Assembly (NCBI RefSeq): GCF_009914315.1
Contig: NZ_CP042596.1
Location: forward strand, 2,604,001-2,668,000
Source of the DNA: Granulicella sp. WH15
GTDB taxonomy: Bacteria > Acidobacteriota > Terriglobia > Terriglobales > Acidobacteriaceae
Direction: 5' to 3'
Length of the DNA: 64,000 nucleotides
A program made the position numbers and the translations under genes. The notes under the pieces are model-generated. The model was not told where the DNA came from and did no database searches. It saw only the letters and a list, made by a program, of their open reading frames with translations. Every line of letters starts with the position of its first letter. The first letter of the stretch is position 1. Positions 974 through 30,614 of the stretch are shown here, piece by piece.

Positions 974-1031
974 TGGTGCCGGGAGGGGGGTCGAACCCCC
1001 ACGAGGTTGCCCTCGGCGGATTTTGAGTCCG
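974..1031 (-). pseudogene. 3' part of split tRNA-Leu(CAA)
   Basis: Read on the minus strand this holds the anticodon loop CTCAAAA, the 3' side of the anticodon stem, the variable arm (CCGAGGGCAACCTCG), the T arm (GGGGGTTCGACCCCC), the acceptor 3' strand TCCCGGC, discriminator A and an encoded CCA. The 5' half is missing here: the sequence diverges from tRNA just before CGGACTCAAAATC. The missing half lies at 30574-30614 on the same strand, and its acceptor strand GCCGGGA pairs perfectly with TCCCGGC. The gene therefore looks cut by the element between them. Confidence 0.88.
1019..1031 (+). repeat. attachment-site core repeat, left end
   Basis: GATTTTGAGTCCG, identical to 30574-30586. It corresponds to the anticodon loop plus flanking stem bases of tRNA-Leu(CAA) on the minus strand. 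On the chromosomal side (974-1018) the tRNA continues. On the element side (1032 onward) it does not. Confidence 0.85.
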
Positions 1032-1406
1032 TAGAAGCCTCAAGTTCATCCGCCCAGAATCATGTCGATACAGCAACTTACGAAACATCATCGTTCAGTT
1101 CCGTGAGGTTGTTTGAGGGTCTGTGAGTTCGGTCTGGACAAAGTTTAGACAAAGTCCATCGAACCCTTCCCTCGACTGTAGAGACATCATATCAAACAAG
1201 TCAAACCAGCAGAGAACAACCGCTGGCCGTTTGTCAACGTAGAACCATAGCCTGAGTCGCTTCGAGCTTATGGAATCGGTCCGGCCCATCGCTCGAATGA
1301 CAAGGTCATAGCTAAAGGTAAGGATGGTGTCGTCATTTATGATACTCGCGCGAACGCTGGCCCTATCAGGGCCGCGCTCATCGAGCGAATGGTAGGATTA
1401 CGCCGT
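1032..1406. other. Non-coding left end of the element
   Basis: I see no convincing gene. Short open frames across 843-1289 overlap the tRNA remnant or have no recognisable content. The stretch ends where the PagL-like gene stops at 1407. Confidence 0.5.
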
Positions 1407-2165
1407 TTAGTTGAGCGATCGACCAAAACGAAACGTCACGGCGAGGGCCTGACTATCGACCCCGGGATTGTCGTAACCCAGATAGGCATTTGAGAGATGA
1501 TGAAGCCGATACTCAATTGCTAACGATCTGTTGTGGTTCTCAAAGAGTTCGACTCCAGCACCGAACTCGAACGTAAAGTTAAAAGACGACGAGTTGTTGA
1601 CGGGAATATCCCTGTTGGACACTAAGAAGCCGAGATGGGAATCGATCAAAGGCTGAACTTTCTTTTTGGGCGCAAAGTTCACCCTAAACCCTGCGGGACT
1701 TGCACCACCCATGTATGTCCATCGAGTGCCGCAGGAGCGAGAAAAGGTGTACCCCTGATTGCCCGGCTGAGGCACCGTAAAGACGCCAGGGACGCAGATG
1801 TTATAGATCGGACTGGTGGTGGCATTGACAACGTTCGTGTTGAGGATGACATCGGTGGCTACCTGATCTTGAAGAAATGCAGCCGGTAGGACACCCATTT
1901 CATAGAAAACGCTAGCGTGAGGCGTCCAGTTGAACCAGTGTGGCGCGTTGAAGCGGCGTGCGTACTCAACTCCGGTGTTCACGAACTGCCGTTTACGGGA
2001 GACGCCCCATTCGATATGACTCGAGGTATGCGAGTATTCGGAAAACAAGGAGAAGGAATTGAGGCGCGAGTATTGAATCGGTACTTGCGCTAACAGGTTG
2101 GGTGCCAACATACTACCGATCATCACGACACCGACGCTAAGAGGGAGCTTGATCCGCATGAGCAT
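1407..2165 (-). CDS. PagL-like lipid A deacylase (acyloxyacyl hydrolase family)
   Basis: 252 residues with a signal peptide (about residues 1-26, ending LLAQ) and alternating beta-barrel character. Near the C-terminus is the family signature EYRLHHLSNAYLGYDNPG, with His223 and Ser225 in the H-x-S arrangement of PagL and an acidic/Asn-Pro-Gly segment just after. PagL proteins are outer-membrane beta-barrel esterases that remove the 3-O-linked acyl chain of lipid A. The protein is longer than Pseudomonas PagL (about 150 mature residues), with an extra Cys-containing loop around 110-150, as in many environmental homologues. It is the leftmost gene of the element, transcribed toward the att site, so it is cargo that could remodel the host's lipopolysaccharide. 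Catalysis is inferred from the motif. Confidence 0.72.
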   Translation of the reverse strand: MLMRIKLPLSVGVVMIGSMLAPNLLAQVPIQYSRLNSFSLFSEYSHTSSHIEWGVSRKRQFVNTGVEYARRFNAPHWFNWTPHASVFYEMGVLPAAFLQDQVATDVILNTNVVNATTSPIYNICVPGVFTVPQPGNQGYTFSRSCGTRWTYMGGASPAGFRVNFAPKKKVQPLIDSHLGFLVSNRDIPVNNSSSFNFTFEFGAGVELFENHNRSLAIEYRLHHLSNAYLGYDNPGVDSQALAVTFRFGRSLN

Positions 2166-2849
2166 CTAGGATTCGGTCCGAAACAAAGCTAGCTTGTGGG
2201 TTACACGGGCGGAACTTCGATTCATGGAAATGCTCCGTGGTTGATTCCATAATGGGCTGAGTGAGCGAAATTGTAGCACGGGTAAGTCAGAGTTCCGGTC
2301 TGCGAGCTACCCACCTATGAGAGAACATTTTCCAGCGCGTTGCTTCGCTTTCTACGGACTCACGTCGTTTCGAAACATCCTTAACCATTCGTTGAACGTT
2401 AGTAAGCGAGTCGACGTTCCTGGCTGAAGCTCTTTGTCAACACTCGGGACTGTGCTGTTAGGTACAGCTATCAACGATCGTGGTGAAAATGTCGCAGAAC
2501 GGTTAGACGACCTGAGGGATTAGCGATCGTTCGATGCAAACCTTGACGGGCGATCAGACACATGATATCCACTTAGACAAGCTTCCAGGCCATCAGCATA
2601 ATCGCATTCCCTTCGTGGCGCGCGTGCGCATCGACTAGTCTCCTATAGAGCAGCAAAGGAGGTTGAAAACCGGATTGAGCCTGATGGATGGTCAGACACC
2701 AGATTCAACCAATCAAAATATCGAACCATGTCTGTCATACCTTCCGAATCGCTTATGTGGTCGATTGCGTGATGCTCCTAGCTGGCCTCATCCAGCACGG
2801 GTATTTCATGTGTTTGGACCGGAAACATTCTTAGAGAGTTGGAGGCACT
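2166..2849. other. Divergent intergenic region, no gene seen
   Basis: About 680 bases between the divergent PagL-like and sedolisin genes. No open frame here has recognisable content. It must hold both promoters, but I could not pick convincing -35/-10 pairs. A GGAGG ribosome-binding site at 2841-2845 lies just before the sedolisin TTG start. Confidence 0.5.
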
Positions 2850-5800
2850 TTGCTTCGCATAGTGGTCGCTGCAGCCATTTTCGTAGTAGCGCCTGCCTTC
2901 GCATTCGCGCAATCGCCGATCAGCACCAGGGCTAATAACTTGGTACTGATGCCGGATCACGTACCGGAATATGTCACAAGTGCACAGGATCAAGGTCCTA
3001 CAGCAGACAACACTCCTATACCAAACGCAGCGATATTGCTTGCCCGTTCTCCGGAACAAGATGCGGCGCTTCAGATTCTGTTGCAGGAACAGATGGACAA
3101 GACCTCTCTTAACTTTCATCGCTGGCTGACTCCTGAAGAGTTTGCGAGTCGATTCGGCGCATCGGAAACGGCTATCGAAATTGTTTCCGGGTGGCTCCAC
3201 GCCAACGGATTCTCACCAACGGTCTCCCGCAGCAAGATGTACGTTTCCGTCTCCGGGAATGCCGCGCAATTCGCGACGCTATTTCACACCACCTTTCATA
3301 CGTTCGCTCTGCACGGGCAGAGCGTCTATTCGGTGACCATTAATCCCAGCGTCCCCGTCGAGGTTGCCCCATTTATACGGTCTATCAACGGATTGACGCA
3401 GCATCCGGACATGGCGAAAGCGGCAACTCCGCATCGGCTTTCTATTCGTCCTGACGGCACGAGTTCGAGCGGCGCACACTACATTACGCCGGCTGACTTC
3501 GCGGTTATCTATGATCTCAATCCGGTCTACAAGGCCGGATATTCCGGTGCCGGCCAAAGCATCGCGATCGTTGGCCGCTCCCGTGTCTCCAACTCTGACG
3601 TCCAGAACTTTGCTCTGGCCACGAATCTGACTCTCTCTAATCCTCAGGTGGTACTTCCGCCTGGCAGCATTGATCCCGGCGAGACAAATAACGGCGATCA
3701 AAATGAAGCAACGCTCGATGTTACCCGTGCGAGTAGCGTTGCCCCAGGGGCGTCGATCTCCCTCGTTATCAGCTCGGCGGCAAGTGGCGGCTATGAGTTG
3801 GCTATGCAATATGTCATCGACAATCAAGCCGCTTCAATCATGTCAGTAAGTTTTGGAACCTGTGAAGCCAGCGCAGGGGGCCCCAGCACAGATTTCTACA
3901 ACGCCCTTCTTACACAGGGCGCAGTGCAAGGCATCACCACATTCATCAGCGCCGGCGACGGGGGTGTCGATGCGTGCGAAGGACCTGATTCAGTTCCAAG
4001 CACGACCCAAATTGCAAGCATCAATCATCTCTGCGCCAGTCCGAATGTGATCTGTGTCGGAGGGACGCAGCTTAATGATACGGCCAATCCCTCACAGTAC
4101 TGGAACGCAGCTAATGGAGCGGGACACGAGTCGGCAATTGGATACATCCCGGAAGGCTCATTCAACGAGCCGATCAATTTAGGAACGGGGGCGACCCAAA
4201 TCTTTGCGGGTAGCGGCGGAATCAGTACATTTATTCCGGCGCCAAGCTGGCAGACGGGCATTCCGATTAGTAGCGGTGGTTTCCGTATGGTTCCGGACAT
4301 ATCCTTCTCCTCTTCCGGACACGATGGTTACTTCATTTGCCTCACCTATCTGGGATACCCCTGCGTTGCAAACTCCCAGGGAGTGACGGAGCTTTACACG
4401 ATTGCAGGAACGTCGGCCGCCGCCCCCTCGATGGCCGGGATTCAGGCGCTGCTCAACCAGCAAGAAAACGCAAAACTGGGAAATATCAATCCGACTCTCT
4501 ACAGCCTTGCGGCGAACCCGGCGAACGGCGTATTTCATGACGTCACGATCAGCTCAAGCGAAGTGACCAACTGCACCGTAGGCACCCCCTCTTTGTGCAA
4601 TAACTCAACGCCTTCTTCCACGTCGCTGCAAGGAGGCGAACCGGGATATATCGTAGGAACCGGATATGACCTTGCTACCGGCTGGGGCTCGATGGATATC
4701 TATAAGCTATTTCAGAGTTGGGGCAACATCTCGAAGCTCGCGGTTGCGACGGTCGACCTGACTCTTTCACAGACACTTGTTTCGGCTGGCCAGAACGTCA
4801 TCTTGACGGCCTCTATGGAGTCCGCGAGTCCCGTTCCCACGGGTACGATTCAGTTCATGGTCGACGGCCAAACAATTGGAGGACCGATTCCGCTCAACTC
4901 GACAGGCGCATCGCTGACGTATCTGGTGATCGGAACGGCACAAATCAATAAGGTTCAAGCGGTATATTCCGGGGACAGCACGTATGCAGCGGCAGTCTCC
5001 GGGACCATGCAGTTTGTGATCACTCCCCTTGGATCTCCTGGCTTCAACGTGACAGCAACTCCCATCCAGATCGGCGCTCCAGGGGATTCCGGAACATCAT
5101 CCGTCACAATCTCATCCACGAATGGCTTCAGTGGCACGGTCACTTTAGGCTGCATTACCGAACCGGGACTGTCCCTTGGTTCCTGCGTGTTCAGCCCAGC
5201 GTCGTTCACTTTGGGTGCTACGCCGGTTCAGTCGGCGCTCAAGCTCACCTCAGTTGCGCCATCTTTACGTCCGGCAGGCGCGGCCCAGGCGTCGGCCACG
5301 AAACCTCGCGATCCCTTGCTCGACGAACTTCCACAAGGGCTTGCACTGAGCTTGCTCGGTTTTCTGTTTATTCCTCGCAGAAGGTTCACAGACCTTCGTA
5401 AGCAAATTGCGCCGTTGGCTTTAATCTCGATTCTCGGCGCTTTCCTGGTTGCCTGCGGACATACCGAAACGACAATTACCGTCGTCTCGGCACTCAATCC
5501 CGGGACAACACAGGTGCCGATCAGCTTCCAAGCCATCGTCGCAGGTTCGCCGGGAGGCGCTGCTCCGACTGGCTCCGTGCAATTTCTCTCGAACGGTCTA
5601 ACGATCGGCGCGCCCGTCAGCCTGACGAACGGCGCGGCAACTTACTCGCAAACATTCACCACAGGCGGGACCTATGCAATCTCCGCTCAGTATCTTGGCG
5701 ACTCCTCCAACCGGGCTTCCCTTTCTTCCGCGATCAACGAATTTATTTCTTACAAAAATACTGGAACCGCGCCTGGCACCTATTCGCTCTTGGTACAAGC

Positions 5801-5852
5801 CACGAGCGGTATGTCGTCGCAAACAGTTCCAGTGACCGTTACGGTGCAATGA
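2850..5852 (+). CDS. Secreted sedolisin-family (S53) serine-carboxyl peptidase with Ig-like repeats
   Basis: 1000 residues. Signal peptide about 1-20, then a pro-kumamolisin-type activation domain (about 30-185) and an S53 catalytic domain (about 205-630). The sedolisin Glu-x3-Asp pair is visible as E286 and D290 (NGDQNEATLD). Asp370 (ISAGDGG) fits the oxyanion Asp, and Ser522 lies in GTSAAAPSMAG. HDVT (about 563) and GYDLATGWGS match the C-terminal calcium-site region. The tail has bacterial Ig-like repeats (PTGTIQFMVDG and PTGSVQFLSNG) with a hydrophobic segment between them (LALSLLGFLFIPRRR ... ALISILGAFLVAC). The start is TTG at 2850 with GGAGG five bases upstream. Sedolisins are usually acid-active endopeptidases. 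Large Ig-tailed versions are common in acidobacteria. It is cargo on the element. Confidence 0.88.
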   Translation: MLRIVVAAAIFVVAPAFAFAQSPISTRANNLVLMPDHVPEYVTSAQDQGPTADNTPIPNAAILLARSPEQDAALQILLQEQMDKTSLNFHRWLTPEEFASRFGASETAIEIVSGWLHANGFSPTVSRSKMYVSVSGNAAQFATLFHTTFHTFALHGQSVYSVTINPSVPVEVAPFIRSINGLTQHPDMAKAATPHRLSIRPDGTSSSGAHYITPADFAVIYDLNPVYKAGYSGAGQSIAIVGRSRVSNSDVQNFALATNLTLSNPQVVLPPGSIDPGETNNGDQNEATLDVTRASSVAPGASISLVISSAASGGYELAMQYVIDNQAASIMSVSFGTCEASAGGPSTDFYNALLTQGAVQGITTFISAGDGGVDACEGPDSVPSTTQIASINHLCASPNVICVGGTQLNDTANPSQYWNAANGAGHESAIGYIPEGSFNEPINLGTGATQIFAGSGGISTFIPAPSWQTGIPISSGGFRMVPDISFSSSGHDGYFICLTYLGYPCVANSQGVTELYTIAGTSAAAPSMAGIQALLNQQENAKLGNINPTLYSLAANPANGVFHDVTISSSEVTNCTVGTPSLCNNSTPSSTSLQGGEPGYIVGTGYDLATGWGSMDIYKLFQSWGNISKLAVATVDLTLSQTLVSAGQNVILTASMESASPVPTGTIQFMVDGQTIGGPIPLNSTGASLTYLVIGTAQINKVQAVYSGDSTYAAAVSGTMQFVITPLGSPGFNVTATPIQIGAPGDSGTSSVTISSTNGFSGTVTLGCITEPGLSLGSCVFSPASFTLGATPVQSALKLTSVAPSLRPAGAAQASATKPRDPLLDELPQGLALSLLGFLFIPRRRFTDLRKQIAPLALISILGAFLVACGHTETTITVVSALNPGTTQVPISFQAIVAGSPGGAAPTGSVQFLSNGLTIGAPVSLTNGAATYSQTFTTGGTYAISAQYLGDSSNRASLSSAINEFISYKNTGTAPGTYSLLVQATSGMSSQTVPVTVTVQ

Positions 5853-5913
5853 AATGCCCCCGACCTTGATTCGCTTCACCGAAATCTAATCTCAAGAATA
5901 GAGGGACGATCTT

Positions 5914-6297
5914 ATGGGTTCGAAACGAAGCATGGCCTCAAAGGTGAGACAAACTCAACTCCACCGGATTCAATCAGCAGACGCCATCATTCGAAAAAAA
6001 GCTGACTTCGCGTCGATTTTGCCAGCTGGGGCGGGCGTTCAAAACCGCGTTATTGCGGTCGTCCAGCAATGGGCGAGGATGGCCGCTCCTCCGGACATTC
6101 AGAAAGTGCTGGAAGGTCTCTGGGTGCTCAGCGGACAAGTGGGAGCATTTTATGACTCGAACGCGAACGATTTCACCGGTGCAGATCTTCTCGTTCAGGC
6201 CATGAACACCGAGTTCATCGCCTTAAACCTGCAACGGGTCGACCTGAATCCTCAAGGTGCTATCAAGACGGTTGACGATCTGGCGGCTGACGCATGA
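5914..6297 (+). CDS. Unknown protein, coupled to the exported protein downstream
   Basis: 127 residues, ATG start, largely helical, with a basic N-terminus (MGSKRSMASKVRQTQLHRIQ) and no clear signal peptide. I recognise no domain. The stop overlaps the start of the next gene by four bases (ATGA), so the two are probably translationally coupled and functionally linked. A stretch around residues 60-75 (PPDIQKVLEGLWVLSGQ) is amphipathic. It starts 61 bases after the sedolisin stop, so it may be read from the same transcript. Confidence 0.5.
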   Translation: MGSKRSMASKVRQTQLHRIQSADAIIRKKADFASILPAGAGVQNRVIAVVQQWARMAAPPDIQKVLEGLWVLSGQVGAFYDSNANDFTGADLLVQAMNTEFIALNLQRVDLNPQGAIKTVDDLAADA

Positions 6298-8081
6298 GCG
6301 AACGGAAGAACGCGTGGATTTATGCCTCCGCTTTAAGGCGGCAGACAAATCGGCGAAACGTCCTGATCGTGACTCTGCTTTCGACGATCTTTTCAAGTAC
6401 AGCTTCATCGAACGCGCAGTCCCCGACGGGCGCGTGCCAGGCAACGGATTACAAGATTCTGACCAACGGCGCCCTTGCGGTGAAGTGTCTTCATAGCGTA
6501 ACGGTGGCGGGTAGAACTGCCAGCATCGGTCCGCCTCCTCCAGCGACTGGAGCTGCGACTGTTTTTGAGGTAGACATAATCACAGTCGATAGTAGTTGGT
6601 TGTTGATCACCCCATCCGCTGCCGCTGGCCCCTTCTCATTCGTTCCAACGCAGAAGTATGCCCTTACCCTTACCTACCTGGCGCCGGATGCCCAAAACCC
6701 TGCGAATCTGGTGGCGACTGCGGAAACACCGTTGGTTCTCGATTTCAGCAACACCTTCACGGTTCGAGGCAGCAAGATCAGCACTCAGCCACAGCATTTC
6801 ATCTTCGAATCTCATATCGGACTTACAGATTCGGGGGGAAGCCTCCTGCAACAGGCAAATCCAGGCGACGTCCCACACCCCAACCAGGCTTGCTCGCTGC
6901 TCCTCGAAAACACCTCTCAGAGGGATGTCTCGGTTGGCGGACATTGTTACGAATTAAAGCCTGTTTCTAAGCTTTCGGTTGCAGCTATGCAGAACATCGA
7001 TCCACAGTGGGTGGGAAGAATTGACGTAGACCTGGTGGGAGTTTCACTGCTGAAGTCAACCCTGATACCGATGGGCTTACCTAGCGGTGCGGCGAAATAT
7101 AGCAACGTGTTTGGAATCGGACCGAAGATTGATCCCAAGTCACGGATCAGCGCCCAAAAAGCTCCAGCGACAAAAGATGCTTCGGCATATTACTTCAATG
7201 TCAATTATGCAGCTGGGACCGGGACGGCACCCGGCTGGGAGTTAGATGGCAAGGTCGCTCCCGTTTTGGCGATGCGCGATGGGTTTACGATCGGACCGTC
7301 CGCAACAGCGAATGTGGGAGGCAACAAAGTTCCCGGCCAGACCTATACGGATTCGATAGATCTTGGCGGTACTGTACAGAGATATTTTCAGCCTGGGATA
7401 AGCAGCAAAAAGCCTGCTAAAAATCAAAGTAAATTCCGGAGACGTTTGAGCCTGGTTCTTCCTCTCCTCGCTCTAAACGGTACAGTCACCTATGAGACTG
7501 ATAAGGAGTTTGATCGAGATAATCTTATTGGGGCAGCAACTGTTAAATATTATTTCGCCCACTCAAACAACACTCAGTCCATTCAAACTCTTAGGAACTT
7601 CTATAAGAAGATAGCCCCCCTATCGGACGGAGATGCAGCTAAGGTGCAACTTGCTGACATTCGTGTGCCACCGTTCGGGTATGAATTCGATTTCCACACA
7701 GGAATTGAAGCAGGGAGGGCGATTCGGGATAAGACCGTCACTGCCACATCTGGCAAGGCCAGCCTCGTTTTGCCGGAATACTCCATCTTTCGCATAGTGC
7801 CGCAGGTTCACAGTATTTTGCAATTCTGGAAAATTAGCACGGAAACTACTGTTGTTGGTCGCTATCTTGTAGCGACAGAAAACACCATATTGCAGACGAA
7901 GAGCAACGCACTCCATCTCGAGCACCTTCAGACCTGGAGAGCTCTATGTACCGCAACGGCAACCTATTCCGATAGTTCCGCCAGTCACGTCGGCCTGACG
8001 ATCAAGTACACGAACGGCTTCGACGCACCGACGTACGCTAGGGTCAATTCAATACAAGCAGGTCTTTTAATAAAATATTAG
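6294..8081 (+). CDS. Unknown exported protein, beta-rich C-terminus
   Basis: 595 residues. Basic N-terminus followed by a hydrophobic signal-like stretch (RNVLIVTLLSTIFSSTASSNAQS, residues about 21-43) with a plausible cleavage site after SNA. The first ~190 mature residues contain beta-sandwich-like text (TVFEVDIITVDSSWLLITP). The C-terminal half alternates polar and hydrophobic residues and ends in aromatic-rich strands (GLTIKYTNGF ... AGLLIKY), suggesting an outer-membrane barrel or surface protein. No domain recognised. It is translationally coupled to the gene before it. Right after its stop, in another frame, begins a MobF relaxase remnant, so this gene's 3' end is a recombination junction. 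Confidence 0.5.
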   Translation: MSERKNAWIYASALRRQTNRRNVLIVTLLSTIFSSTASSNAQSPTGACQATDYKILTNGALAVKCLHSVTVAGRTASIGPPPPATGAATVFEVDIITVDSSWLLITPSAAAGPFSFVPTQKYALTLTYLAPDAQNPANLVATAETPLVLDFSNTFTVRGSKISTQPQHFIFESHIGLTDSGGSLLQQANPGDVPHPNQACSLLLENTSQRDVSVGGHCYELKPVSKLSVAAMQNIDPQWVGRIDVDLVGVSLLKSTLIPMGLPSGAAKYSNVFGIGPKIDPKSRISAQKAPATKDASAYYFNVNYAAGTGTAPGWELDGKVAPVLAMRDGFTIGPSATANVGGNKVPGQTYTDSIDLGGTVQRYFQPGISSKKPAKNQSKFRRRLSLVLPLLALNGTVTYETDKEFDRDNLIGAATVKYYFAHSNNTQSIQTLRNFYKKIAPLSDGDAAKVQLADIRVPPFGYEFDFHTGIEAGRAIRDKTVTATSGKASLVLPEYSIFRIVPQVHSILQFWKISTETTVVGRYLVATENTILQTKSNALHLEHLQTWRALCTATATYSDSSASHVGLTIKYTNGFDAPTYARVNSIQAGLLIKY

Positions 8082-8332
8082 CCACGTGGATTGCCAAGAA
8101 CGGAAGGATGACCATTCGTATGGACGACAACAAGGAGAAAACAGTCGTCTTTGATCCACGCGAGATGCGATACTTCGACTACGGCGAGGTCGCGACTTCG
8201 CGCGATTCGCAAGGTCTAACCGCAGAACGAGTCTTGGTGAATGTAGACACAGGTGTTCACCCCGAACACATCAATACAATTGGTCTCGTACTCAAAACAG
8301 GGTTGGTGTACAAACCGAAATTGGACTTCTAG
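8081..8332 (+). pseudogene. Remnant of a MobF (TraA/TraI-type) relaxase helicase domain
   Basis: The frame reads (A)TWIAKNGRMTIRMDD, then FDPREMRYFDYGEVATSRDSQGLTAERVLVNVD. This aligns with the MobF-type protein at 27192-28751 (GGNLKLRMDSGREVEF ... LDYGYAVTSHSSQGQTADRVLVHVD), the motif region of the RecD-like helicase. The similarity begins upstream of the first ATG (8108) and stops at about residue 60 of the remnant, followed by unrelated residues and a stop. It is a short isolated piece, not a working gene. It is distinct in sequence from the longer copy, so it comes from a second relaxase gene. Confidence 0.75.
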
Positions 8333-8373
8333 AGAGTTTCGTCATTCCTCTTTACGTAAGGCGAGGGCACTTC

Positions 8374-8814
8374 ATGCCAGACTTAGACCTTCCTCTTCTT
8401 CGACTAGACGCTAAAGCTAGAGACGCTTTCGACCTCATGCGACATCGGTCAACATCTGGGGTGGTAGGCCATGTGGATGACAGATATTGGCTCTTCGCGG
8501 CCTGGCAGGTAGTAACAGCGCTATCTGACAATCCCTCGGTGAATCTCAGTGACATCAGGCCACTTAGAGAAATGCATCCAGATCGTAAAAGCCGAATCTT
8601 TGACGAGGCAGGGATTTCGGGACATCGAATTTCGCTAGCCGGCCAGCCGCAAGGCGATCTTGTAAGTCACTTCAGAATCGACGAAGTCACGTTTGCGATG
8701 CTCGAGGGTAGCCCGCACGATTGCTATTGCAGAGTTGATGGCAAACCCGTACCTGACGGTCAGACAGGCACGGATTGCCCGGACGGCCACCATAATTCGG
8801 TGCGGTGCGCATAA
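8374..8814 (+). CDS. Unknown protein with C-terminal Cys module (cassette gene 1)
   Basis: 146 residues, ATG start. N-terminal and middle parts are unrecognised. The C-terminal ~35 residues read SPHDCYCRVDGKPVPDG and continue with DCP...H...VRC, i.e. C-x-C-x(~15)-C-x(~9)-C. The next gene ends in the same module (SPVDCYC ... KPV ... NCP ... TVRCC), so the two are related. Four conserved Cys suggest metal binding or a disulfide knot; there is no signal peptide, which favours metal. First of five closely spaced genes (8374-11761) ending in a CpaB-like and a LecA-like protein. No function is known to me. Confidence 0.6.
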   Translation: MPDLDLPLLRLDAKARDAFDLMRHRSTSGVVGHVDDRYWLFAAWQVVTALSDNPSVNLSDIRPLREMHPDRKSRIFDEAGISGHRISLAGQPQGDLVSHFRIDEVTFAMLEGSPHDCYCRVDGKPVPDGQTGTDCPDGHHNSVRCA

Positions 8815-8865
8815 TCTTTCTTTAAGCTGGCCACTTATTTCACGAAAACACGGTGTTGATGAACT

Positions 8866-9357: not shown

Positions 9358-9372
9358 CCTCCTTTGTCGACT

Positions 9373-10710: not shown

Positions 10711-10714
10711 ACAG

Positions 10715-11332: not shown

Positions 11333-11344
11333 GTCGAGGCTATT

Positions 11345-21405: not shown

Positions 21406-21430
21406 GGCTCTGCCCTTCATACGTCTTGGC

Positions 21431-23124: not shown

Positions 23125-23411
23125 ACCGATAGTACTCCGTAGTAATTCCCCGCAATATTATCAGCGCGCATCTACTACTGAGGCCAAGCTACAAATCCAA
23201 GCATGCATGCCCTGATCCGGAAAAGGCGACGTTGTTGCATCTTGGTACCGTCAGACCCGACAATTTGAGCACATGGGCGTCTTACTTCGGACGCTTCTTG
23301 ACATCCGAGACCTGGAGACCCGCGCCAGTGATGAGGCGGCAGCCGTGGATGATAACCACGTCCATGCGCTTCTTCATTGGCGAGGGGCTGGTGATGCCTT
23401 TGGGGGGAAGA

Positions 23412-23498
23412 TGGTGGCCGAGGTCGGACTCGAACCGACATGAGGTTGCCCTCGGCAGATTTTGAGTCTGCTGTGGCTGCCAATTTCACCACTCGGCC
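23412..23498 (-). tRNA. tRNA-Leu(CAA), complete, carried inside the element
   Basis: Minus strand, 87 nt with encoded CCA. Acceptor GGCCGAG pairs with CTCGGCC; anticodon loop CTCAAAA (anticodon CAA at 23462-23464) on a GCAGA/TCTGC stem; long variable arm typical of Leu (CGAGGGCAACCTCG); T arm TCGGTTCGAGTCCGA. It differs from the chromosomal tRNA-Leu that the element has split (acceptor GCCGGGA), so it is not a duplicate of the target. Carrying it could supply the same decoding capacity. No neighbour in the same orientation overlaps it. Confidence 0.92.
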
Positions 23499-23694
23499 AT
23501 GATTAAGATTGTACCGCAGGTACGATGAGCGGGTGCGACCTTGGAGCGTGGATTCCTACCGCGCAGCCGGCGAGCGGAGGCCGGAGCATTAGGAAATGGG
23601 TGCAGCGAGAAACCCAGTGGGTGTCTCCTTGCCGCGCGCCGAGCGCAAGAAAAGCGGTGAGGTTGCAGGTTCGCAACCTCCCGACGGGTCTTAC

Positions 23695-24108
23695 TTAACC
23701 GAGAATGCAATTGCTCGTGAAGGCTTCTCCGTAGCCCTGCAAGCGCAAGTTGTTGTCCCACGTCTCCGCAAACTTCTCCTGCTGCCTCTGCAATTCAAGA
23801 AGAGCCACATAATGATCACGGATGATGGAACGTGAAACCTGCTCGACGGCCACATAGTCATTTCGCCAAGAGTACGGGATCAGGTGTGCGCCTCCCGCGA
23901 GGCCAAGCTCGAAACACATCTCGGGGTCGCGCATAGCATCGCCGCTCTGTTCGCCGTAGTGTGCGACTGACAGCGCAGGCAAACCCAATGGTCCTGACTC
24001 AGGCACCCCTTCAATCACTAACGGCAAATACGGCGGATTCTCAATTCTGATGTAGAGGTTGGGCCGCCAGCCTCCAGCTTTCTTGAGGATGTTGAGAACC
24101 GTCTTCAT
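23695..24108 (-). CDS. DUF6908-like protein, ArdC-linked
   Basis: 137 residues. Text such as YIRIENPPYLPLVIEGV, LSVAHYGEQSGDAMRDPEM and YSWRNDYVAVEQ is the pattern of a small protein family found next to antirestriction and replication genes on mobile elements. I know it as DUF6908; the number is from memory. The stop of the upstream ArdC gene overlaps its start by four bases. Function unknown; the coupling suggests a joint role in establishment of the element after entry. Confidence 0.65.
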   Translation of the reverse strand: MKTVLNILKKAGGWRPNLYIRIENPPYLPLVIEGVPESGPLGLPALSVAHYGEQSGDAMRDPEMCFELGLAGGAHLIPYSWRNDYVAVEQVSRSIIRDHYVALLELQRQQEKFAETWDNNLRLQGYGEAFTSNCILG

Positions 24109-25010
24109 GCCGCCACCTCCGCGAGTTCATCGGTGGCGGCAGCGTCGTTCTTCTCTTCTATGGTCGGCTCCAGCGCAGCAAGGATGACTGCCGCTGTCTT
24201 CTGGATCACTTCCAGCGATTCCGCCAGCAGTGAAGCGTTGCCGTGATACAGGCTTATGTAATCGGCGGATGCTGTACCCGTAACCAACCCAATGGCCTTG
24301 CCCACCACAAAGGCGACGGCCTCAGCCTCTGTCTCGCGCACGGTCTTGGTGGTGGCTGTCCTGCGCTCAGCCTTGTGCAAGAGTTCGTGTGCCGTCTCAT
24401 GCACCAGCGTCGAAAACTCTTCCGCCTTCGATTGTCCGGGGAGGATCGCGATACGTCCGCCGTAGCTCATGCCAAGTGCGGGCGCGATATTGGGGCTATA
24501 GACAAGGGTGATGCCGCGAGAGCAAACAAATGCGGCCAGACGTGCCGAGTTCTCGCCGGGATCGCCGGAGATCTCGCGCATGGATGGCAGGTCTACTCCG
24601 TCCGTCTGCGAGACATCGAAAACGTACGTCGAACGAAAGCCACACAGAACAGCGCTGTTCTGCTTGGTGATATCTCTACTGCCTTCTTCGTCCTTTTTCT
24701 TGCGAACGCCGATGATGGGCGCAAGGATGCGGATGCCTTTTTCGCCCTTCTTCACCGAACGACCTAAGTTCTTCCATGTCCAAAAGCCTGCAACGCGAGT
24801 CGCGTCCGGTCGCTGGCGCGCGATTTCGAGGATGTTGCCAAGTGAATAGTGATGAAACCGGCTCATCGCATTGAGGTAGTCGGTGAGGGCTTCCGAATGC
24901 CCGGCCTCTAGCTGCTCGATGAGAAGCTGTACATTCTCCGCAATAACTTCACGGGCGGTCTTGGGTTGATTGTGGGTGTCGATGGCTTCGTTCTTGGCGA
25001 TGATGTTCAT
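24105..25010 (-). CDS. ardC: ArdC-type antirestriction protein
   Basis: 301 residues from ATG 25010, with AAGGAG upstream; an in-frame extension to 25226 is low-complexity and unlikely to be coding. The N-terminal ssDNA-binding domain (IEQLEAGHSEALTDYLNAMSR; FHHYSLGNILEIARQRP; GFWTWKNLGRSVKKGEKGI) is clear. The C-terminal metallopeptidase-like part has HETAH (ETAHELLHKAERR) and YISLYHGN. ArdC proteins bind single-stranded DNA and protect incoming elements from host restriction. Coupled to the DUF6908-like gene; the IR-rich stretch 25011-25434 lies just upstream. Confidence 0.85.
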   Translation of the reverse strand: MNIIAKNEAIDTHNQPKTAREVIAENVQLLIEQLEAGHSEALTDYLNAMSRFHHYSLGNILEIARQRPDATRVAGFWTWKNLGRSVKKGEKGIRILAPIIGVRKKKDEEGSRDITKQNSAVLCGFRSTYVFDVSQTDGVDLPSMREISGDPGENSARLAAFVCSRGITLVYSPNIAPALGMSYGGRIAILPGQSKAEEFSTLVHETAHELLHKAERRTATTKTVRETEAEAVAFVVGKAIGLVTGTASADYISLYHGNASLLAESLEVIQKTAAVILAALEPTIEEKNDAAATDELAEVAA

Positions 25011-25434
25011 GGCGTCTGCTCCTTGTCGGCATTTGCTTTTGCACTTCCGCGTTGAAACGCGGCATGTACATGCCGAACGCCACCTGGCGAAGGCGGGGGT
25101 AGCAAGGTGCAAGGGAGGGGTCTCCCCACCCGGAGCAAAGCGGAGGGCGAGCGCAGCGAAGGTCTGCACAAGCGAAGCGCGGAAGATTGGGGATGCCCTT
25201 GTCGCCGCGCGGGGGGCAGAGCCCACTAGGAAGGCTTGGCTTCCTTATGCAGTGCGCGTCAGCGCACAGAAACTACAGGGAGGGCGTTGCGGGAAGGAAC
25301 GGCCCGCAGAGGTGGAAGCGGAGAACGCGCAAGCGGTCGAAGCGCGGAGGAAACATCCTCCGAAGAAGAGGAACTCTACGATTCGAAGGTCACCAGACCC
25401 GTACGTTGTGAGCTGCTAGAACCGGCACGTCATC
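25011..25434. other. IR-rich intergenic region between ardC and the next operon
   Basis: No gene recognised; low-complexity, G-rich on the plus strand. Several short hairpins are visible: CCGCGTT/AACGCGG at 25047-25062, the 14-base palindrome GGCATGTACATGCC at 25061-25074, AGGAAG/CTTCCT at 25228-25245 and GTGCGC/GCGCAC at 25252-25267. This could be a control region, an RNA or a transfer origin, and I cannot choose between them. Confidence 0.4.
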
Positions 25435-25713
25435 CTAATCGGCGTTGTTCTGCGTCTTCGCCAGTATCGGCAGTGAGCCGCGCACCGGTTTCTTGATGGG
25501 CTCCAACTCCCCGCGCGCATCGCGTGCCAGGTGGGTAATCTCGAACGACGGGGCACATCTCACTTCAATCAGGATTTCTGTCTTATCCTCAAACTCCACG
25601 ACCAGATATATTTCATGGGATTTCGGATAGGGCTCTTCTAACGCCAATCGACGAATCTGCTTTCCAACAGCTTCGTCCATGACCAGTACAGCGCGCTTTG
25701 CCTTATTTTTCAT
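25435..25713 (-). CDS. Unknown small protein, third gene of a coupled operon
   Basis: 92 residues from ATG 25713, overlapping the end of the XRE gene by eleven bases. Basic start (MKNKAKRAVLVMDEAVG), then two strands (EIYLVVEFEDKTEILIEVRC) and a proline-ended polar tail. Looks like a small alpha/beta protein; not recognised. Position suggests co-regulation with the XRE gene before it. Confidence 0.5.
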   Translation of the reverse strand: MKNKAKRAVLVMDEAVGKQIRRLALEEPYPKSHEIYLVVEFEDKTEILIEVRCAPSFEITHLARDARGELEPIKKPVRGSLPILAKTQNNAD

Positions 25714-26017
25714 CTTGGGCTCCCTTTGCTTCCAACCAAGGTGGCGGACCTGCCATATCCCCGGCGCGCTTATAGAGATCGAACATTTCCAACCCCAGGG
25801 CACGAGCAATCCGGTCCAGCCTTCCAATCGAGTAGTTTGTGTGAAGTTCGTTTGTCTCCAACTTTTTAAGCCATGGAACGGACACCTTGGCCCTACTCGC
25901 AACTTCGCCATGCGTAAGACCCTTATCCGTACGGAATTCACGGACAGCCACGCCGAGGCAGCGATCGTGCTCCATCTCATAGCGTTCTAAAACAGCTCGA
26001 TCCACCGGTTTCTTCAT
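25703..26017 (-). CDS. XRE-family HTH regulator
   Basis: 104 residues. HTH: GVAVREFRTDKGLTHGEVAS and RAKVSVPWLKKLETNE, then IGRLDRIARALGLEMFDLYK, a classic XRE domain occupying residues ~22-85, with a short polar tail. It overlaps the preceding gene by four bases and the following gene by eleven. Likely local regulator of the element; target sites unknown. Confidence 0.8.
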   Translation of the reverse strand: MKKPVDRAVLERYEMEHDRCLGVAVREFRTDKGLTHGEVASRAKVSVPWLKKLETNELHTNYSIGRLDRIARALGLEMFDLYKRAGDMAGPPPWLEAKGAQDEK

Positions 26018-26769
26018 GGGATATCCTCTCTGCCGCTGGCCGATCTCCTCGCCTGAGCTCGATGCGCGAGTTCATTGAACTTCTCCTGCCCAAAAAACCG
26101 TAGTCCGGCATAGAGATTCTTCACGAACCCTGCCTCATTCTTGAAAGCAACTGATTTGCCGCAGAGGTCGATGCCTTCCCGCATGGCCCAGGTATAGGCT
26201 GCACAGGTCATGAGCTGTCTCGCGCGTTCACCACTAATCCCTCGCAGTGCCCCGATATCTGGCGCGGACATGCCGCCATGGACCGAATCGACCAGCATTT
26301 CGTAGGCACGCGCAAAGCGTGCGCGACCTTCAATGGAATCCTGTCGCGAGCGGAGAGGGTGATGAGCACCAAACCAAAGAGGGGGAGTTTTCCTTGGAAG
26401 CCGGGCGGCATACCGTGCACGAAGAACCGCGATTGCAGAAGGATGGGATGGAACACCACGACCAGCGACACGCGAGTGCTCTCTCCACCGGCGATACGCT
26501 CGACTCACTATCCAGCTCACCGCATCCTTTCCCGAAGTCCGCAAACCGAGAGAGGAAGCCCAGGCTTTTGCGAGTACGTGCGCATCAATCATGAGGGCTT
26601 TCGCCACGTCCCTGAATTCGGTCTCCGTCAGGTGGCTCTTTCCGGCGAGGTACCGAGCCAGACAGCGCTCGGTGATGTCGCCGAGCCGCTCGCTAAGTTC
26701 CTGATGGGAGATGTCCCCGCGCAACATTTCAATCTGCAAGAGCAGATGGTGGCGAAAATCCCATTTCAT
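26014..26769 (-). CDS. Putative DNA-binding protein, first gene of the XRE operon
   Basis: 251 residues from ATG 26769, with GGGAGG six to seven bases upstream; an upstream extension lacks support. N-terminal HTH-like segment (DISHQELSERLGDITERCLAR) and a second helix-turn-helix resembling sigma-70 region 4 near residue 195 (MSAPDIGALRGISGERARQLM). Middle is very basic (AVLRARYAARLPRKTP). No named family recognised. Coupled by four bases to the XRE gene. Confidence 0.5.
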   Translation of the reverse strand: MKWDFRHHLLLQIEMLRGDISHQELSERLGDITERCLARYLAGKSHLTETEFRDVAKALMIDAHVLAKAWASSLGLRTSGKDAVSWIVSRAYRRWREHSRVAGRGVPSHPSAIAVLRARYAARLPRKTPPLWFGAHHPLRSRQDSIEGRARFARAYEMLVDSVHGGMSAPDIGALRGISGERARQLMTCAAYTWAMREGIDLCGKSVAFKNEAGFVKNLYAGLRFFGQEKFNELAHRAQARRSASGREDIP

Positions 26770-26889
26770 CGAAGACCTCCCGAGAAGAGACCTATTTGGA
26801 AACAAGGGTTTACGTAAGCGCACGAGGGTGGGTCGCCGCGGCTATAGTTAAACCGGAACTCTAAACTTCAAGGATCGTAGCAAAACTAC

Positions 26890-27168
26890 TTGATAAAAAC
26901 AAGTAATAAATCCGATCAGGCCGATCATTTTCAGGACTGGATTACGCAAGCAGAAGCAGCCCGGATTCGGGACGTTTCTCCGCAAGGCATATCCGACCTC
27001 ATCAGACGAGGACGGCTGCAAACCCTGCTTATCGGCGGGAAGACTTTTGTGCGCCGCTCAGAGGTGGAGGCTTTCAAGCCGACCACTGGCGGCAGACCAC
27101 GGAAAAAACCAGTGGCGAAGAAAGCTGCAGCTAAGAAAACTGCCGCACCAAAGACAAAAGCGGATTGA
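26890..27168 (+). CDS. Excisionase-type HTH protein with a lysine/alanine-rich tail
   Basis: 92 residues from TTG 26890. Residues ~16-60 form a MerR/excisionase-type HTH (WITQAEAARIRDVSPQGISD, LIRRGRLQTLLIGGKTFVRR). The last ~25 residues are a histone H1-like tail (KKPVAKKAAAKKTAAPKTK) that may bind DNA without sequence preference. Divergent from the 26014-26769 gene, in a plausible position for an Xis-type factor of the element, though it is 3 kb from the integrase. Confidence 0.65.
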   Translation: MIKTSNKSDQADHFQDWITQAEAARIRDVSPQGISDLIRRGRLQTLLIGGKTFVRRSEVEAFKPTTGGRPRKKPVAKKAAAKKTAAPKTKAD

Positions 27169-27191
27169 CTCGCCAGCATCACTAGATGCGA

Positions 27192-28751
27192 TCAACTTAT
27201 GCTTAGCCCCTGAGACATTTCGACGGTTGCAGACGGGTTCGCGACGCTCTGCCCTAGATCTTGGCTCCCGATACTTTGAGCTTCCTGAATCGCTGTAGCC
27301 TTTGTCACATCCCGGCTCAGGTCCTGCCCCAGGGTTTTCGCATCGTTCGTATACATCTTCACGTCATACTGCGCCCGCGAAACGGAGACGTACGCCATGC
27401 GGCTATTCAACAGCTCGCCGTGTGCTTGTGAAGAATCCACATGAACCAGCACGCGGTCGGCGGTCTGGCCTTGGCTGCTGTGGCTCGTCACCGCATAGCC
27501 GTAGTCCAGATGCGGATGCTGTCGCGCGTTGAACTCGACTTCGCGGCCCGAATCCATCCTCAGTTTTAGGTTGCCGCCTTTGTCGATCTGCTCGACCGTT
27601 CCCAGCTCTCGATTCGCTAGCTTTTCCGCATGGTACGGCGCGGTCATTTGCACACGGTCACCCTGCGCGAAGCTGCGGTCATGATCGCGGTAGACCGTCA
27701 CGCCCTGCAAGCGGCGAGGATCGTAGCTTAGCTCTTCGCCACCGTGACGCTTCACCGTCAGCGTATTTGTCTCTCGATCTGTGGCCGTGACACGCGCATA
27801 CTCTCCGGCCTCGATACCCAGCGGCTTCGATCCTTTCGAGTAGCGGATCACATCACCCTTGTCATAGTTCTGCGCATGTTGACGATCAGCTCCGCTGATG
27901 TCCTGCCGCGCATACAGCACATGCACGCGATGCTCTTCATTCGATACTCTGCCGTCTGCCTGCATCCTCTGATGGATGGCGCTGTTGATGTCGCGGCGCG
28001 ATTCATTGTCGGGCGAGACGACCAACGTGCTTTCAGGCGAACGCACATACTCACGCGCAATTTCACCGATACGCTCGTGGCGGTCTTCGATCTCCAACAC
28101 GCGGCCCTGGCTATTGAGATTGCCGATGGCCTCGCGCACTTCGCCCCGCGCAAGCTGCTCGACAACCTCTTTCAAGGCAGGGTCTTTCTGCCGGATGATC
28201 TCATCCAACTGCGCCGTTCGCATTCCTGCCTCCTGAAGCTGAGCATACGGTCGGCCAGCTTCGACCGCTTCATGCTGCCGCGTATCTCCGACGAACAACA
28301 CACGATCATGTTCTTTTAGGCGCTCGACAAACGTGTGCATCTGCATGGTGCTTGCCATGCTCGACTCATCGACGACGTAGAGCGTCTTCTGACCATTGTC
28401 CGGCTGCTCGCCGCGTGCAAGATGGCGTTGTAACGTCTGCGTCTCCATGCCCGCTTCGCCCAGCTTTTGCGCGGCTCTGGACGTCGGCGCTAGACCTTCA
28501 ATCTGATATCCCGAACGCTCGGCGGCTTCACGGACAGCCGTTAGGGACGTTGTTTTTCCAAGACCGACTTCATCGGCAAGGATCGCTCCTTTCGACAGTG
28601 GGGAGCGAAAGGCGAAAAGTGCAGCTTCAATCTGATGGGGATTGAGGTCAACCTGTGCGTCAGAGAGTGCGGACGCAAGTTTGTCAACATTGTCCGAACT
28701 GGACCGTTTCGTCAGCTCATGAGCAAAGAGCTTCGCGTGATAAGGCGTCAT
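27192..28751 (-). CDS. Chimera: SNF2-type helicase N-terminus fused to MobF relaxase helicase domain
   Basis: 519 residues. Residues 1-67 (YHAKLFAHELTKRSSSD; DAQVDLNPHQIEAALFAF; LSKGAILADEVGLGKT) match the start of SNF2-type helicases up to motif I. From residue ~67 the text is the RecD-like helicase half of MobF (TraA) relaxases: TSLTAVREAAERSGYQIEGL, APTSRAAQKLGEAGMETQTL, Walker B VVDESS (126-131), then the SH3-like insert and GYAVTSHSSQGQTADRVL. The splice is at the GKT of both P-loops, keeping an intact Walker A. The relaxase nicking domain (N-terminal ~250-300 residues of MobF) is absent, so it cannot initiate transfer. Coupled by four bases to the RHH gene. Confidence 0.75.
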   Translation of the reverse strand: MTPYHAKLFAHELTKRSSSDNVDKLASALSDAQVDLNPHQIEAALFAFRSPLSKGAILADEVGLGKTTSLTAVREAAERSGYQIEGLAPTSRAAQKLGEAGMETQTLQRHLARGEQPDNGQKTLYVVDESSMASTMQMHTFVERLKEHDRVLFVGDTRQHEAVEAGRPYAQLQEAGMRTAQLDEIIRQKDPALKEVVEQLARGEVREAIGNLNSQGRVLEIEDRHERIGEIAREYVRSPESTLVVSPDNESRRDINSAIHQRMQADGRVSNEEHRVHVLYARQDISGADRQHAQNYDKGDVIRYSKGSKPLGIEAGEYARVTATDRETNTLTVKRHGGEELSYDPRRLQGVTVYRDHDRSFAQGDRVQMTAPYHAEKLANRELGTVEQIDKGGNLKLRMDSGREVEFNARQHPHLDYGYAVTSHSSQGQTADRVLVHVDSSQAHGELLNSRMAYVSVSRAQYDVKMYTNDAKTLGQDLSRDVTKATAIQEAQSIGSQDLGQSVANPSATVEMSQGLSIS

Positions 28752-28957
28752 TTGCGAGCCTCACGCAGACTCGGAATCCGTCTGTCGCTGAGATAAACTT
28801 CGACAGCATCGCGCACTATCCATGCAAGCGAAACTTTCTTTTGCTTTGCCTCAGCTTCGAGGGCTAAGTAAAGCTCGGCAGGAAAGCTGATCGACGCCCG
28901 AACAGTTTCAGGGTCAACCTTTATGCCGCTTGTTAGAGGCGATTTGCGTTTCATCAT
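28748..28957 (-). CDS. Ribbon-helix-helix (CopG-type) protein
   Basis: 69 residues. RASISFPAELYLALEAEAKQ followed by KKVSLAWIVRDAVEVYL is a CopG/RHH domain, with a short basic N-terminus (MMKRKSPLTSG). The stop overlaps the chimera's start by four bases. I recall similar RHH proteins directly before SNF2-type helicases, so this gene and the first 67 residues downstream probably belong to one ancestral operon, with the relaxase part inserted later (inference). Confidence 0.68.
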   Translation of the reverse strand: MMKRKSPLTSGIKVDPETVRASISFPAELYLALEAEAKQKKVSLAWIVRDAVEVYLSDRRIPSLREARK

Positions 28958-29068
28958 CTAGACTCCTATGATCGTTCACCACTTTACACCACGATGGTGA
29001 ATGGAAAACAGGAGTAGACCGTTTATTAGTGCTTCACCTATCGTGAGCTGGATGGCCGTGAAACCGCG

Positions 29069-29133
29069 GCACACGCTCGTGTGCAGAGGCGGCACCGGAT
29101 CAAAGCGGGCCGGAGCGGCCCTGATCCGGTGCC
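29069..29133. other. Two nested hairpins between integrase and RHH genes
   Basis: GCACACG/CGTGTGC at 29069-29084, then GGCACCGGATCA (29091-29102) with its perfect inverse TGATCCGGTGCC (29122-29133), enclosing GGGCC/GGCCC (29107-29121). Strong, ordered structure without a gene. Possible transfer origin, integrase binding region or part of a terminator array. Confidence 0.45.
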
Positions 29134-29142
29134 AAAAGCAAA

Positions 29143-29162
29143 CCCGGATGCTTCCATCCGGG
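29143..29162 (-). terminator. Rho-independent terminator of the integrase gene
   Basis: CCCGGATG/CATCCGGG, eight paired bases with a four-base loop. On the minus strand it is followed by TTTGCTTTT. It lies nine bases after the integrase stop, so it should end the integrase transcript. Confidence 0.72.
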
Positions 29163-29170
29163 TAGTGCAA

Positions 29171-30439
29171 CTACATTGCATTTGCCAACAGCTGTGACTC
29201 GACTCGCCGGGGATCCTTCTTTGCCACTTCTTTCTTAGGGCGTGGTCTCATCACATTTATCGCAGAGGCATCGAGCTGAGTCTTCAGGTGAGCCGCATAG
29301 TATTTCTCAATCATCTCTACGCTTGTCCGACAGTTCTTTGCGATCTGGTAGATGTCAGCCCCCTCAAGAAGCCGCAAACAGATATAGGTATGGCGAAGGC
29401 TGTACGCCGTACGCGGTCTGTCGTCACGATCTTTACGTAGTTTTTCTTCGTCAAGAATCTTGTTGAACAAGTCTCGAGACCACTTGGGGAACAGGCGGTC
29501 AGTTGGTCCAGATTGCTGCCATTCGCCGCTTTCCTTGCGGCTTCCTGCTCGTCCCGGTCCACCGTCAGGACGGGGACGAGTCTTCAACCGTTCGAACGGG
29601 CGCACAGCTCCTTCTGTGCTTTTGCAGAAGCCAATACCTCTCTTGCCTCGAACTTCGATTTCTAGGATCGTTTGGCCGCTGCCTTCGTCTTTGATGACCT
29701 TTACGTCACGAAACTGAAGGCGCATCGCTTCATCGGGCCTGAGCCCAGTATTCGCAGAGAACAGAACATAGTCATGAAGTTGTTCTGCTTCCCAGCGGAA
29801 GCGTGGCTGTTTCGGGTGTTGCGCCCGCTTGCGGGTCGCTTCGTAGAGCTGCTTATACTCTTCCGGCGAAAACCATGCGCGGTGAGAAATCTTGGCCGAC
29901 GCCCGATAGGGCGCGGACATGTCCGGCATATGGTCGATCCATCCATGCCGCAATGCCGTTTTGAAAATCTGACGCAGCGTCACGATCTCTTGGTGCATGG
30001 TGCTATGTGCTGGAGGTTTGCCACGGGATGCCTTTGCTTCTTCTAGTCGGTGGATGCGATATTCATTGATTTTGCCCGCAGTGATTTCGGGAAGAACCAT
30101 GCCGCCGAAAAACGGCACGAGATAGCCATTCGTACGCGCATGCTGACCACGCGCATAGGTCGCGTTTCGCTGTCCCTGCGTCATGATGTCGAACTCGCGC
30201 AGGTATAACTTCGCGGCATCGCGGAACATTCTGCCTGTCTTTAACTCGCCGTCGCGGAGCTTACCGCGCAACTGCAAGTACCAGTCTTCAGCGAACTCTT
30301 TTGCTTTCGAAAGGCTGTCTTCTTTGGTTGTTGTGCGCCGATTCCTTCCGGCTAGATACGTCGCGCATTGCCAGCTTGAGCTATTCGGACGTTTGTAGAC
30401 GTGAACCTTGCCACCGAGGATGGTGTGATGTTCGGACAT
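29171..30439 (-). CDS. int: Tyrosine-recombinase integrase of the element
   Basis: 422 residues from ATG 30439, with GGAGG nine bases upstream (a longer frame to 30511 is less likely). N-terminal arm and SAM-like domain (ITAGKINEYRIHRLEEAKAS), then the catalytic domain with Arg in NTGLRPDEAMRL, the second-box Arg-His in YSLRHTYICLRLLEGADIYQ (box-II first position is Tyr, as in many integrases) and the nucleophile Tyr near the end in EKYYAAHL. It sits 135 bases from the right att core, downstream of the tRNA 5' half, as expected for a tRNA-targeting integrase. It probably recognises the anticodon-loop core at 30574-30586. Confidence 0.9.
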   Translation of the reverse strand: MSEHHTILGGKVHVYKRPNSSSWQCATYLAGRNRRTTTKEDSLSKAKEFAEDWYLQLRGKLRDGELKTGRMFRDAAKLYLREFDIMTQGQRNATYARGQHARTNGYLVPFFGGMVLPEITAGKINEYRIHRLEEAKASRGKPPAHSTMHQEIVTLRQIFKTALRHGWIDHMPDMSAPYRASAKISHRAWFSPEEYKQLYEATRKRAQHPKQPRFRWEAEQLHDYVLFSANTGLRPDEAMRLQFRDVKVIKDEGSGQTILEIEVRGKRGIGFCKSTEGAVRPFERLKTRPRPDGGPGRAGSRKESGEWQQSGPTDRLFPKWSRDLFNKILDEEKLRKDRDDRPRTAYSLRHTYICLRLLEGADIYQIAKNCRTSVEMIEKYYAAHLKTQLDASAINVMRPRPKKEVAKKDPRRVESQLLANAM

Positions 30440-30573
30440 GCGAGAGCACCTCCTGACACACCCAAAATACCATGAAAGTGTGGAAGAGTTGTGTAACGGA
30501 AGAGGCAACATTCACTAGAAGCTAAATGGCTTATTTTGAATGGTTTAAGCGGATATCCAATGGTGTCTTGGAC

Positions 30574-30586
30574 GATTTTGAGTCCG
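30574..30586 (+). repeat. attachment-site core repeat, right end
   Basis: GATTTTGAGTCCG, identical to 1019-1031. On the right (30587-30614) the tRNA-Leu 5' half continues; on the left (30573 and below) the element begins without restoring the 3' side of the anticodon stem. Confidence 0.85.
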
Positions 30587-30614
30587 CTGCGTCTGCCAGT
30601 TCCGCCATCCCGGC
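30574..30614 (-). pseudogene. 5' part of split tRNA-Leu(CAA)
   Basis: Minus strand from 30614: acceptor GCCGGGA, then the D arm (TGGCGGAACTGGCAGAC), the anticodon stem GCGGA and loop CTCAAAA, ending at TC. The next element bases (GTCCAAGAC) do not pair back to GCGGA. Joined at the core with 974-1018 it makes an 86-nt Leu tRNA with complete stems. As it stands neither half can fold as a tRNA. Confidence 0.88.

Follow-up and report, generated by a model that had tools for sequence, protein, structure and literature searches.

Integrative elements that break a host tRNA-Leu gene and carry a putative replacement with the same anticodon

We examined a 64,000-nucleotide (nt) stretch of the finished, single-contig genome of Granulicella sp. 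WH15 (C1:2604001-2668000 of 4,673,153 bases, 4.67 Mb; hereafter the window), in which the anticodon loop of a transfer RNA (tRNA) gene, tRNA-Leu(CAA), is interrupted by a 29.5-kb element that restores the gene at neither of its ends. The arrangement is not peculiar to this strain and recurs in many related elements. Integration very probably breaks the host gene, with the loss rescued in trans by a tRNA-Leu of the same anticodon carried on the element itself (hereafter the spare). The sequences themselves show that the host gene is broken and has no intact copy, that the element carries a tRNA gene of its own, that the two anticodons match and that the carried tRNA is conserved; from them we infer that the carried tRNA would be expressed and would make integration survivable. 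In the proposed series of events, the element's tyrosine integrase would recombine inside the anticodon loop of the host tRNA-Leu gene, integration would destroy the gene because the short shared core cannot rebuild it, and the element's complete tRNA-Leu would take over from the broken host gene.

The split gene and its counterparts in Granulicella

The integrase-side junction holds the 5' half of the host tRNA-Leu(CAA) gene (30574..30614, minus strand); it stops within the anticodon loop and agrees at 41/41 positions with the uninterrupted gene in relatives. Its 13-bp core, GATTTTGAGTCCG (30574..30586, minus strand), is repeated at the far junction (1019..1031, minus strand) beside a 3' half (974..1018, minus strand), and the element lies between the two cores (1032..30573; strand not assigned). 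The guanine-plus-cytosine content of 4-kb bins wholly within the element is 51-57%, versus 61-64% in the chromosome bins to the right. A host semialdehyde dehydrogenase gene (30642..31760, minus strand) adjoins the 5' half and marks the ancestral locus: downstream of the same gene, an uninterrupted tRNA-Leu(CAA) is found about 90 bp away in one relative (G069) and 1.1 kb away in another (G012). At six relatives' loci (L032-L036, L039) the 5' half is cut at the identical base and meets a similar element end starting GTC, so the split is not a chance pattern. A first-pass annotation had described the split, with its halves and shared core, had held that the gene is not restored, and had proposed a comparison with the empty site in relatives; our results bear out the first two points. 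Neither ARAGORN nor Rfam reports a tRNA at the split or at either junction, and tRNA-Leu(CAA) is rebuilt at neither of them. Regeneration of the target gene at a junction, by which classical islands are judged, was therefore not found, and a tyrosine integrase, a short core inside a tRNA gene and a gene that is not rebuilt all occur together at the window element.

The two halves in the window join to an 86-nt Leu tRNA, as had been stated; its T stem, described at first as perfect, is imperfect because the C run of the T arm is one base short. A second host 3' half lies about 11.0 kb further left, outside the window (C1:2593887-2593949; locus L070, about 9892-9948), and when the 5' half is joined to it the result is a perfect 87-nt tRNA-Leu(CAA) with the same sequence as the intact gene in G021 and G012. 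Because of this difference, the window's 3' half appears to be an additional copy that has decayed slightly, the full-length one being outside the window.

Next to the 5' half, and reading away from it, is the gene for the tyrosine recombinase (29171..30439, minus strand). The 422 amino acids counted from its ATG are conserved in relatives, it matches the phrog_1 integrase family (E 1.7e-27), and R234, R349 and Y380/Y381 are invariant in an alignment of 11 sequences; searches of Pfam and of PDB sequences gave no match to it. The first-pass annotation was right that the host gene is broken but overlooked a complete tRNA-Leu(CAA) about 7 kb inside the element (23412..23498, minus strand; called by ARAGORN and Rfam). 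This gene, the A-type spare, has TACAAT upstream, is unlike the host gene in most stems and is conserved in six elements. A second, partly degraded element spans L070 9892-20000 and positions 1-974 of the window. This remnant, flanked by the two 3' halves, extends leftward beyond the window and contains a helicase fragment, an ArdC-N protein and its own complete tRNA-Leu(CAA) (L070:10112-10198). With complete copies in both the element and the remnant, the cell still has a tRNA-Leu(CAA) gene, and loss of the gene without replacement is ruled out.

The wider tRNA inventory fits this picture. There are 48 tRNA matches in the genome, 41 of which were read by ARAGORN; the other seven are 71-74 bases, too short to be Leu. 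The Leu anticodons present are TAA, TAG, GAG and CAG, plus the two element-borne CAA genes, and pattern and BLAST searches found no intact host-type tRNA-Leu(CAA) in the genome. Both halves of the host gene are still recognisable, as might be expected if they were transcribed apart and joined in trans, or spliced from one long transcript; we give this next to no credence, because the halves lie 29.5 kb apart, the 3' half in the window is one base short and a complete tRNA is present. Scarcely more credible is an assembly error or a dead relic, in favour of which nothing was found, given that the genome is a single contig and that the identical break occurs in other genomes, cultured strains among them.

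Across 62 genomes of the genus, the pattern of an intact tRNA-Leu(CAA) was present in 57. A host-type gene (one that BLAST aligns with the host gene over nearly its full length) was found in 48 genomes, element-type CAA genes alone in nine (including WH15, G000), both types in none and neither in five: G084 and G013 (each with a split 5' half), G022 (cut by a contig end), G006 and G017. The element-type genes comprise the A-type (G000, G003, G014, G015, G028 and G070; 97-100% identity), a B-type (G000, G073 and G081; 100% identity) and a third type in G010. Besides WH15, whole split sites with both junctions and a CAA spare inside were seen in G003, G014, G028, G010, G128, G127 and G130; in G015 and G070 the element is spread over contigs. 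Among six elements the A-type tRNA is 97.4% identical, and the DNA 61-400 bases upstream and downstream of it 52% and 47%, respectively. Downstream of the same dehydrogenase gene in G081, all that can be recognised by eye is a small piece of the integrase start and a degenerate 3' half, and the B-type tRNA is intact (87/87) and is the sole CAA gene found; in G073 a B-type tRNA stands beside a decayed A-type one. This state is what would be expected if the spare had become indispensable, in which case the element would decay and the spare would stay.

Two other observations concern the same genus. In G072, G071 and G066, several 3' halves form a run in the vicinity of an intact tRNA-Leu(CAA), the trace to be expected of classical islands stacked at one and the same gene, and at G034:C7:182229 an integrase fragment adjoins an 11-bp core that stands alone, without either tRNA half, and may mark a secondary site.

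Anticodon agreement among relatives of the integrase

A scan of 84,980 species genomes yielded 229 relatives of the integrase, judging by record titles mainly in Acidobacteriota and Proteobacteria and with cultured carriers such as Edaphobacter lichenicola M8US30, Granulicella aggregans M8UP14 and Nitrobacter vulgaris Ab1. Eighty of the 229 were tabulated and, with G000, G003 and G011, make up 83 loci. A broken tRNA-Leu 5' half precedes the integrase in 69 loci (UAA in 43, CAA in 26), and the remaining 14 have neither or cannot be told. In L333, L335 and L340 a shortened 3' half that lacks the variable arm comes after the 5' half, and ARAGORN calls no tRNA there.

The UAA set could be assessed at 40 of the 43 loci, the contigs of L280, L326 and L336 ending at or just past the integrase. 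A complete intron-bearing tRNA-Leu(UAA) is carried by 34 of the 40, starting no more than 310 bp from the integrase end in 33 of these 34 (that of L340 is 5 kb away, on the other strand). The spare of L308 is partly N, and four of the 40 (L292, L302, L304 and L339) have a spare cut inside by the contig end. A complete CAA tRNA occurs at 17 of the 26 CAA-broken loci: eight are intronless and beside the integrase, one is intron-bearing and beside the integrase (L316), and eight are distal within the element (G000, G003, L264, L266, L272, L271, L269 and L277). Contigs end too early at six of the 26.

The carried anticodon equals the broken one in all 51 loci with a complete carried tRNA. An integrase tree covers 82 rows, with five contig-cut rows among those compared and one frameshifted row left out; on it anticodons agree in 54/55, and the target has changed at least eight to nine times. 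Roles in the translation of element genes or in evading tRNA-cutting defences, such as are discussed for phage tRNAs in PMC10865867, might also account for a carried tRNA, its match to the broken gene then being coincidental. We consider this improbable in view of the 51/51 agreement, of the position of the tRNA within about 310 bp of the integrase end in 42 of those 51 loci, and of the five relatives with an intact target (L312, L314, L322, L334 and L338; 2 to 10 kb examined), none of which has a tRNA after the integrase. Among four plasmid relatives of the integrase (49-59% identity), three have a tRNA 3' fragment beside it, as judged by eye, and none has a complete tRNA.

Host copies of the UAA gene were also sought. 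The pattern of an intronless UAA gene matched in 9 of 38 genomes, which hold mostly UAA-broken loci. Three of these matches (G086, G087 and G100) are without the acceptor 5' strand and give no ARAGORN tRNA; complete intronless genes are those of G096, G102, G113, G119, G120 and G107, the last looking plastid-like. Within the limits of the drafts and of the pattern, 32/38 genomes are thus without an intronless UAA gene.

Several observations weigh against rescue by the carried tRNA. The two element-borne CAA genes in WH15 mean that neither alone is shown to be needed, and TTG may also be read by tRNA-Leu(UAA). Two UAA-broken loci have no spare in the DNA examined, L276 over the roughly 12 kb before its contig stops (an intact UAA gene is present in the same bin) and L333 over 2.5 kb, and G015 also holds an intact UAA gene. 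Among the CAA-broken loci, L275 (G129) shows no spare in 40 kb; L284 has a contig-cut UAA intron tRNA beside the integrase, with a CAA spare on another contig; and at L295 (G131) a complete CAA gene of host type lies 26 kb away from the broken half, and we take it for the gene rebuilt at the far junction. Many rows are draft bins and related by descent, and the well-supported branches give four independent pairs switching together and none against (p 0.125), too few to decide. A further candidate exception, L289 (G089), was dropped on closer look.

At the far junctions of G128:C46:44421, G025:C3:598233, L344 and L345, the element side keeps a partial tRNA 5' half without the acceptor strand. 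These elements are perhaps descended from ones that once replaced the 5' half.

Introns and changed stems in the carried tRNAs

The integrases of G011, G025, G021 and G015 (contig 31), and broken ones in G008 and G010 (contig 72), have the same placement in tRNA-Leu(UAA). At these six loci a complete tRNA-Leu(UAA) directly follows the integrase, with 209-213 nt inserted in its anticodon loop (204-271 nt in the wider set), and ARAGORN gives a TAA anticodon for all six. The UAA spares were missed by ARAGORN without its intron search and found with it; odd anticodons, taken as wrong splice points, were re-read from the exon ends. We read the splice layout as CTT, an intron ending in G, and AAAA, which would place the splice point after U34 and form the anticodon from U and then AA. 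The insert matches the Rfam group I intron model RF00028 in all four stretches tested (three UAA, one CAA), with E-values of 3e-12 to 7e-8 and bit scores of 45.9 (L199), 42.1 (L365), 51.1 (L316) and 44.3 (L341).

If the carried tRNA is to serve as proposed, it presumably must not itself act as an attachment site; a spare with the target's core would therefore be a possible site for the element's own integrase. We infer that the spare would be hidden from that integrase in one of two ways. Changed anticodon stems may shield CAA spares, as in the window, and in nearly all UAA spares a group I intron would split the core in DNA and be removed only from RNA. Cores were compared over the 13 nt around the anticodon, with the 3' side of the target inferred by pairing. 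Once spliced, 23 of 33 intron-bearing spares have the same core as the target, nine of them over 17 nt, versus 1 of 16 intronless spares (Fisher p 3e-5, in a test that ignores shared descent and is confounded with anticodon type).

These figures also bear on a serious competing explanation, to which we assign somewhat less than an even chance, namely that the intron of the UAA spares is a passenger inherited from an ancient tRNA lineage that already bore it and does no shielding. Its splice layout, which we take to be that of cyanobacterial tRNA-Leu(UAA), counts for this, as do the confounding and shared descent behind the Fisher test and the 10/33 intron-bearing spares that differ from the target core anyway. 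Such a passenger sits less easily with the contrast in core identity between intron-bearing and intronless spares, with the different stem of L320, the sole intronless UAA spare seen (no 5' half upstream), and with L316, in which a CAA spare also has an intron, one base earlier. Shielding has difficulties of its own. The single intronless spare with a matching core, that of L310, keeps the target 13-mer; three of the four RF00028 scores are under the gathering score of 50; and an Rfam scan of six UAA loci at the gathering threshold gave no intron, the matches having come from shorter stretches with E-values.

On balance, we hold as evenly poised the broad reading that these loci represent a cross-phylum family of elements whose integrases destroy tRNA-Leu genes, and whose replacement gene would be inaccessible to the integrase because a group I intron, absent from the RNA once spliced, interrupts the attachment core in the DNA. 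Such elements would carry tRNA-Leu(UAA) introns beyond the cyanobacteria and would replace host tRNA genes.

Element gene content and comparison with known systems

Between the integrase and the carried tRNA, all on the minus strand, the window element encodes a small protein of 69 amino acids (28748..28957; ribbon-helix-helix-like by eye only), an AAA_30/Dda-RecD-like helicase (27192..28751), a protein with an ArdC N-terminal domain (24105..25226), a relative of which is found next to the B-type tRNA, both in L070 and in the elements of some relatives, and a DUF6908 protein adjoining the carried tRNA (23695..24108). Two genes on the other side of the tRNA (21431-23124, minus strand) strongly match the candidate defence pair PDC-M02A/B (E 2e-68 and 4e-121). 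A Fic-domain protein (SoFic match; 18628-19788, minus strand) and a HipA-like protein with a helix-turn-helix partner (14286-15904, minus strand) are typical mobile cargo, and a large pro-kumamolisin/S8 peptidase with bacterial Ig-like domains lies near the element's far end (2850-5852, plus strand). Elsewhere in the window, an Acido-Lenti-1 RNA (62181-62225, minus strand) scores above its gathering score.

A viral origin, as judged by the integrase, was unsupported: tblastn against 50,697 phage records gave no match at E 1e-10, and viral contigs gave a single match, at 26% identity. Ten element proteins compared with PHROGs returned integrase, helicase, anti-restriction and unknown families and one weak tail-tape-measure match (E 0.0004). 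Among 22 element proteins compared with Pfam, a scan that did not take in shorter reading frames, no relaxase or mating-pair family was found, and one helicase has a TraI-associated domain.

The rescue logic itself is already published as tRNA-dependent lysogeny in actinobacteriophages (Guerrero-Bustamante & Hatfull 2024, PMC10865867), which combines a broken tRNA gene with a carried replacement, as here, and includes phage Gaia, which also uses tRNA-Leu(CAA). Its authors also point to a Lactobacillus prophage; in two other papers, a tRNA substitution in Sinorhizobium is likened to tRNA-dependent lysogeny (PMC11476347) and prophages without it are described (PMC12429752). The present elements differ in having no clear phage match, in their mainly acidobacterial and proteobacterial hosts, and in the group I intron of their UAA spares; the word "intron" occurs only once in PMC10865867, in a reference title. 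They would thus extend tRNA-dependent integration from actinobacteriophages to elements without a clear phage match in other phyla, and suggest that hosts may lose their own tRNA gene to a mobile one able to outlive the element. A literature search that excluded most subscription journals found no publication joining intron, rescue tRNA and integrase; what appears new is the intron-bearing tRNA-Leu(UAA) spares on UAA-breaking elements.

Like classical tRNA-gene islands (Islander; PMC4383910), the window element has an integrase adjoining its tRNA target and a displaced tRNA fragment at the far end, but it does not restore the gene as those islands do. Bacterial tRNA group I introns are listed for cyanobacteria, alphaproteobacteria and betaproteobacteria in PMC4033280. 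The intron of cyanobacterial and plastid tRNA-Leu(UAA) described there is likewise a group I intron in the anticodon loop, whereas the introns reported here are on mobile elements of other bacteria and split the core used by the adjacent integrase. The same source puts most bacterial tRNA introns at position 37/38, unlike the splice point after U34 that we read. That tRNA introns or splits protect against integration was proposed by Randau & Soll, as cited in PMC3293823 and PMC4033280, and according to the former an intron that arrives with an element could also exclude further elements. The shielding considered here is like that proposal in that an intron would block integration at a tRNA gene; unlike it, as the proposal concerns archaeal host genes, the element would shield its own spare from its own integrase, which allows the old idea to be tested with a single integrase and two forms of the same site.

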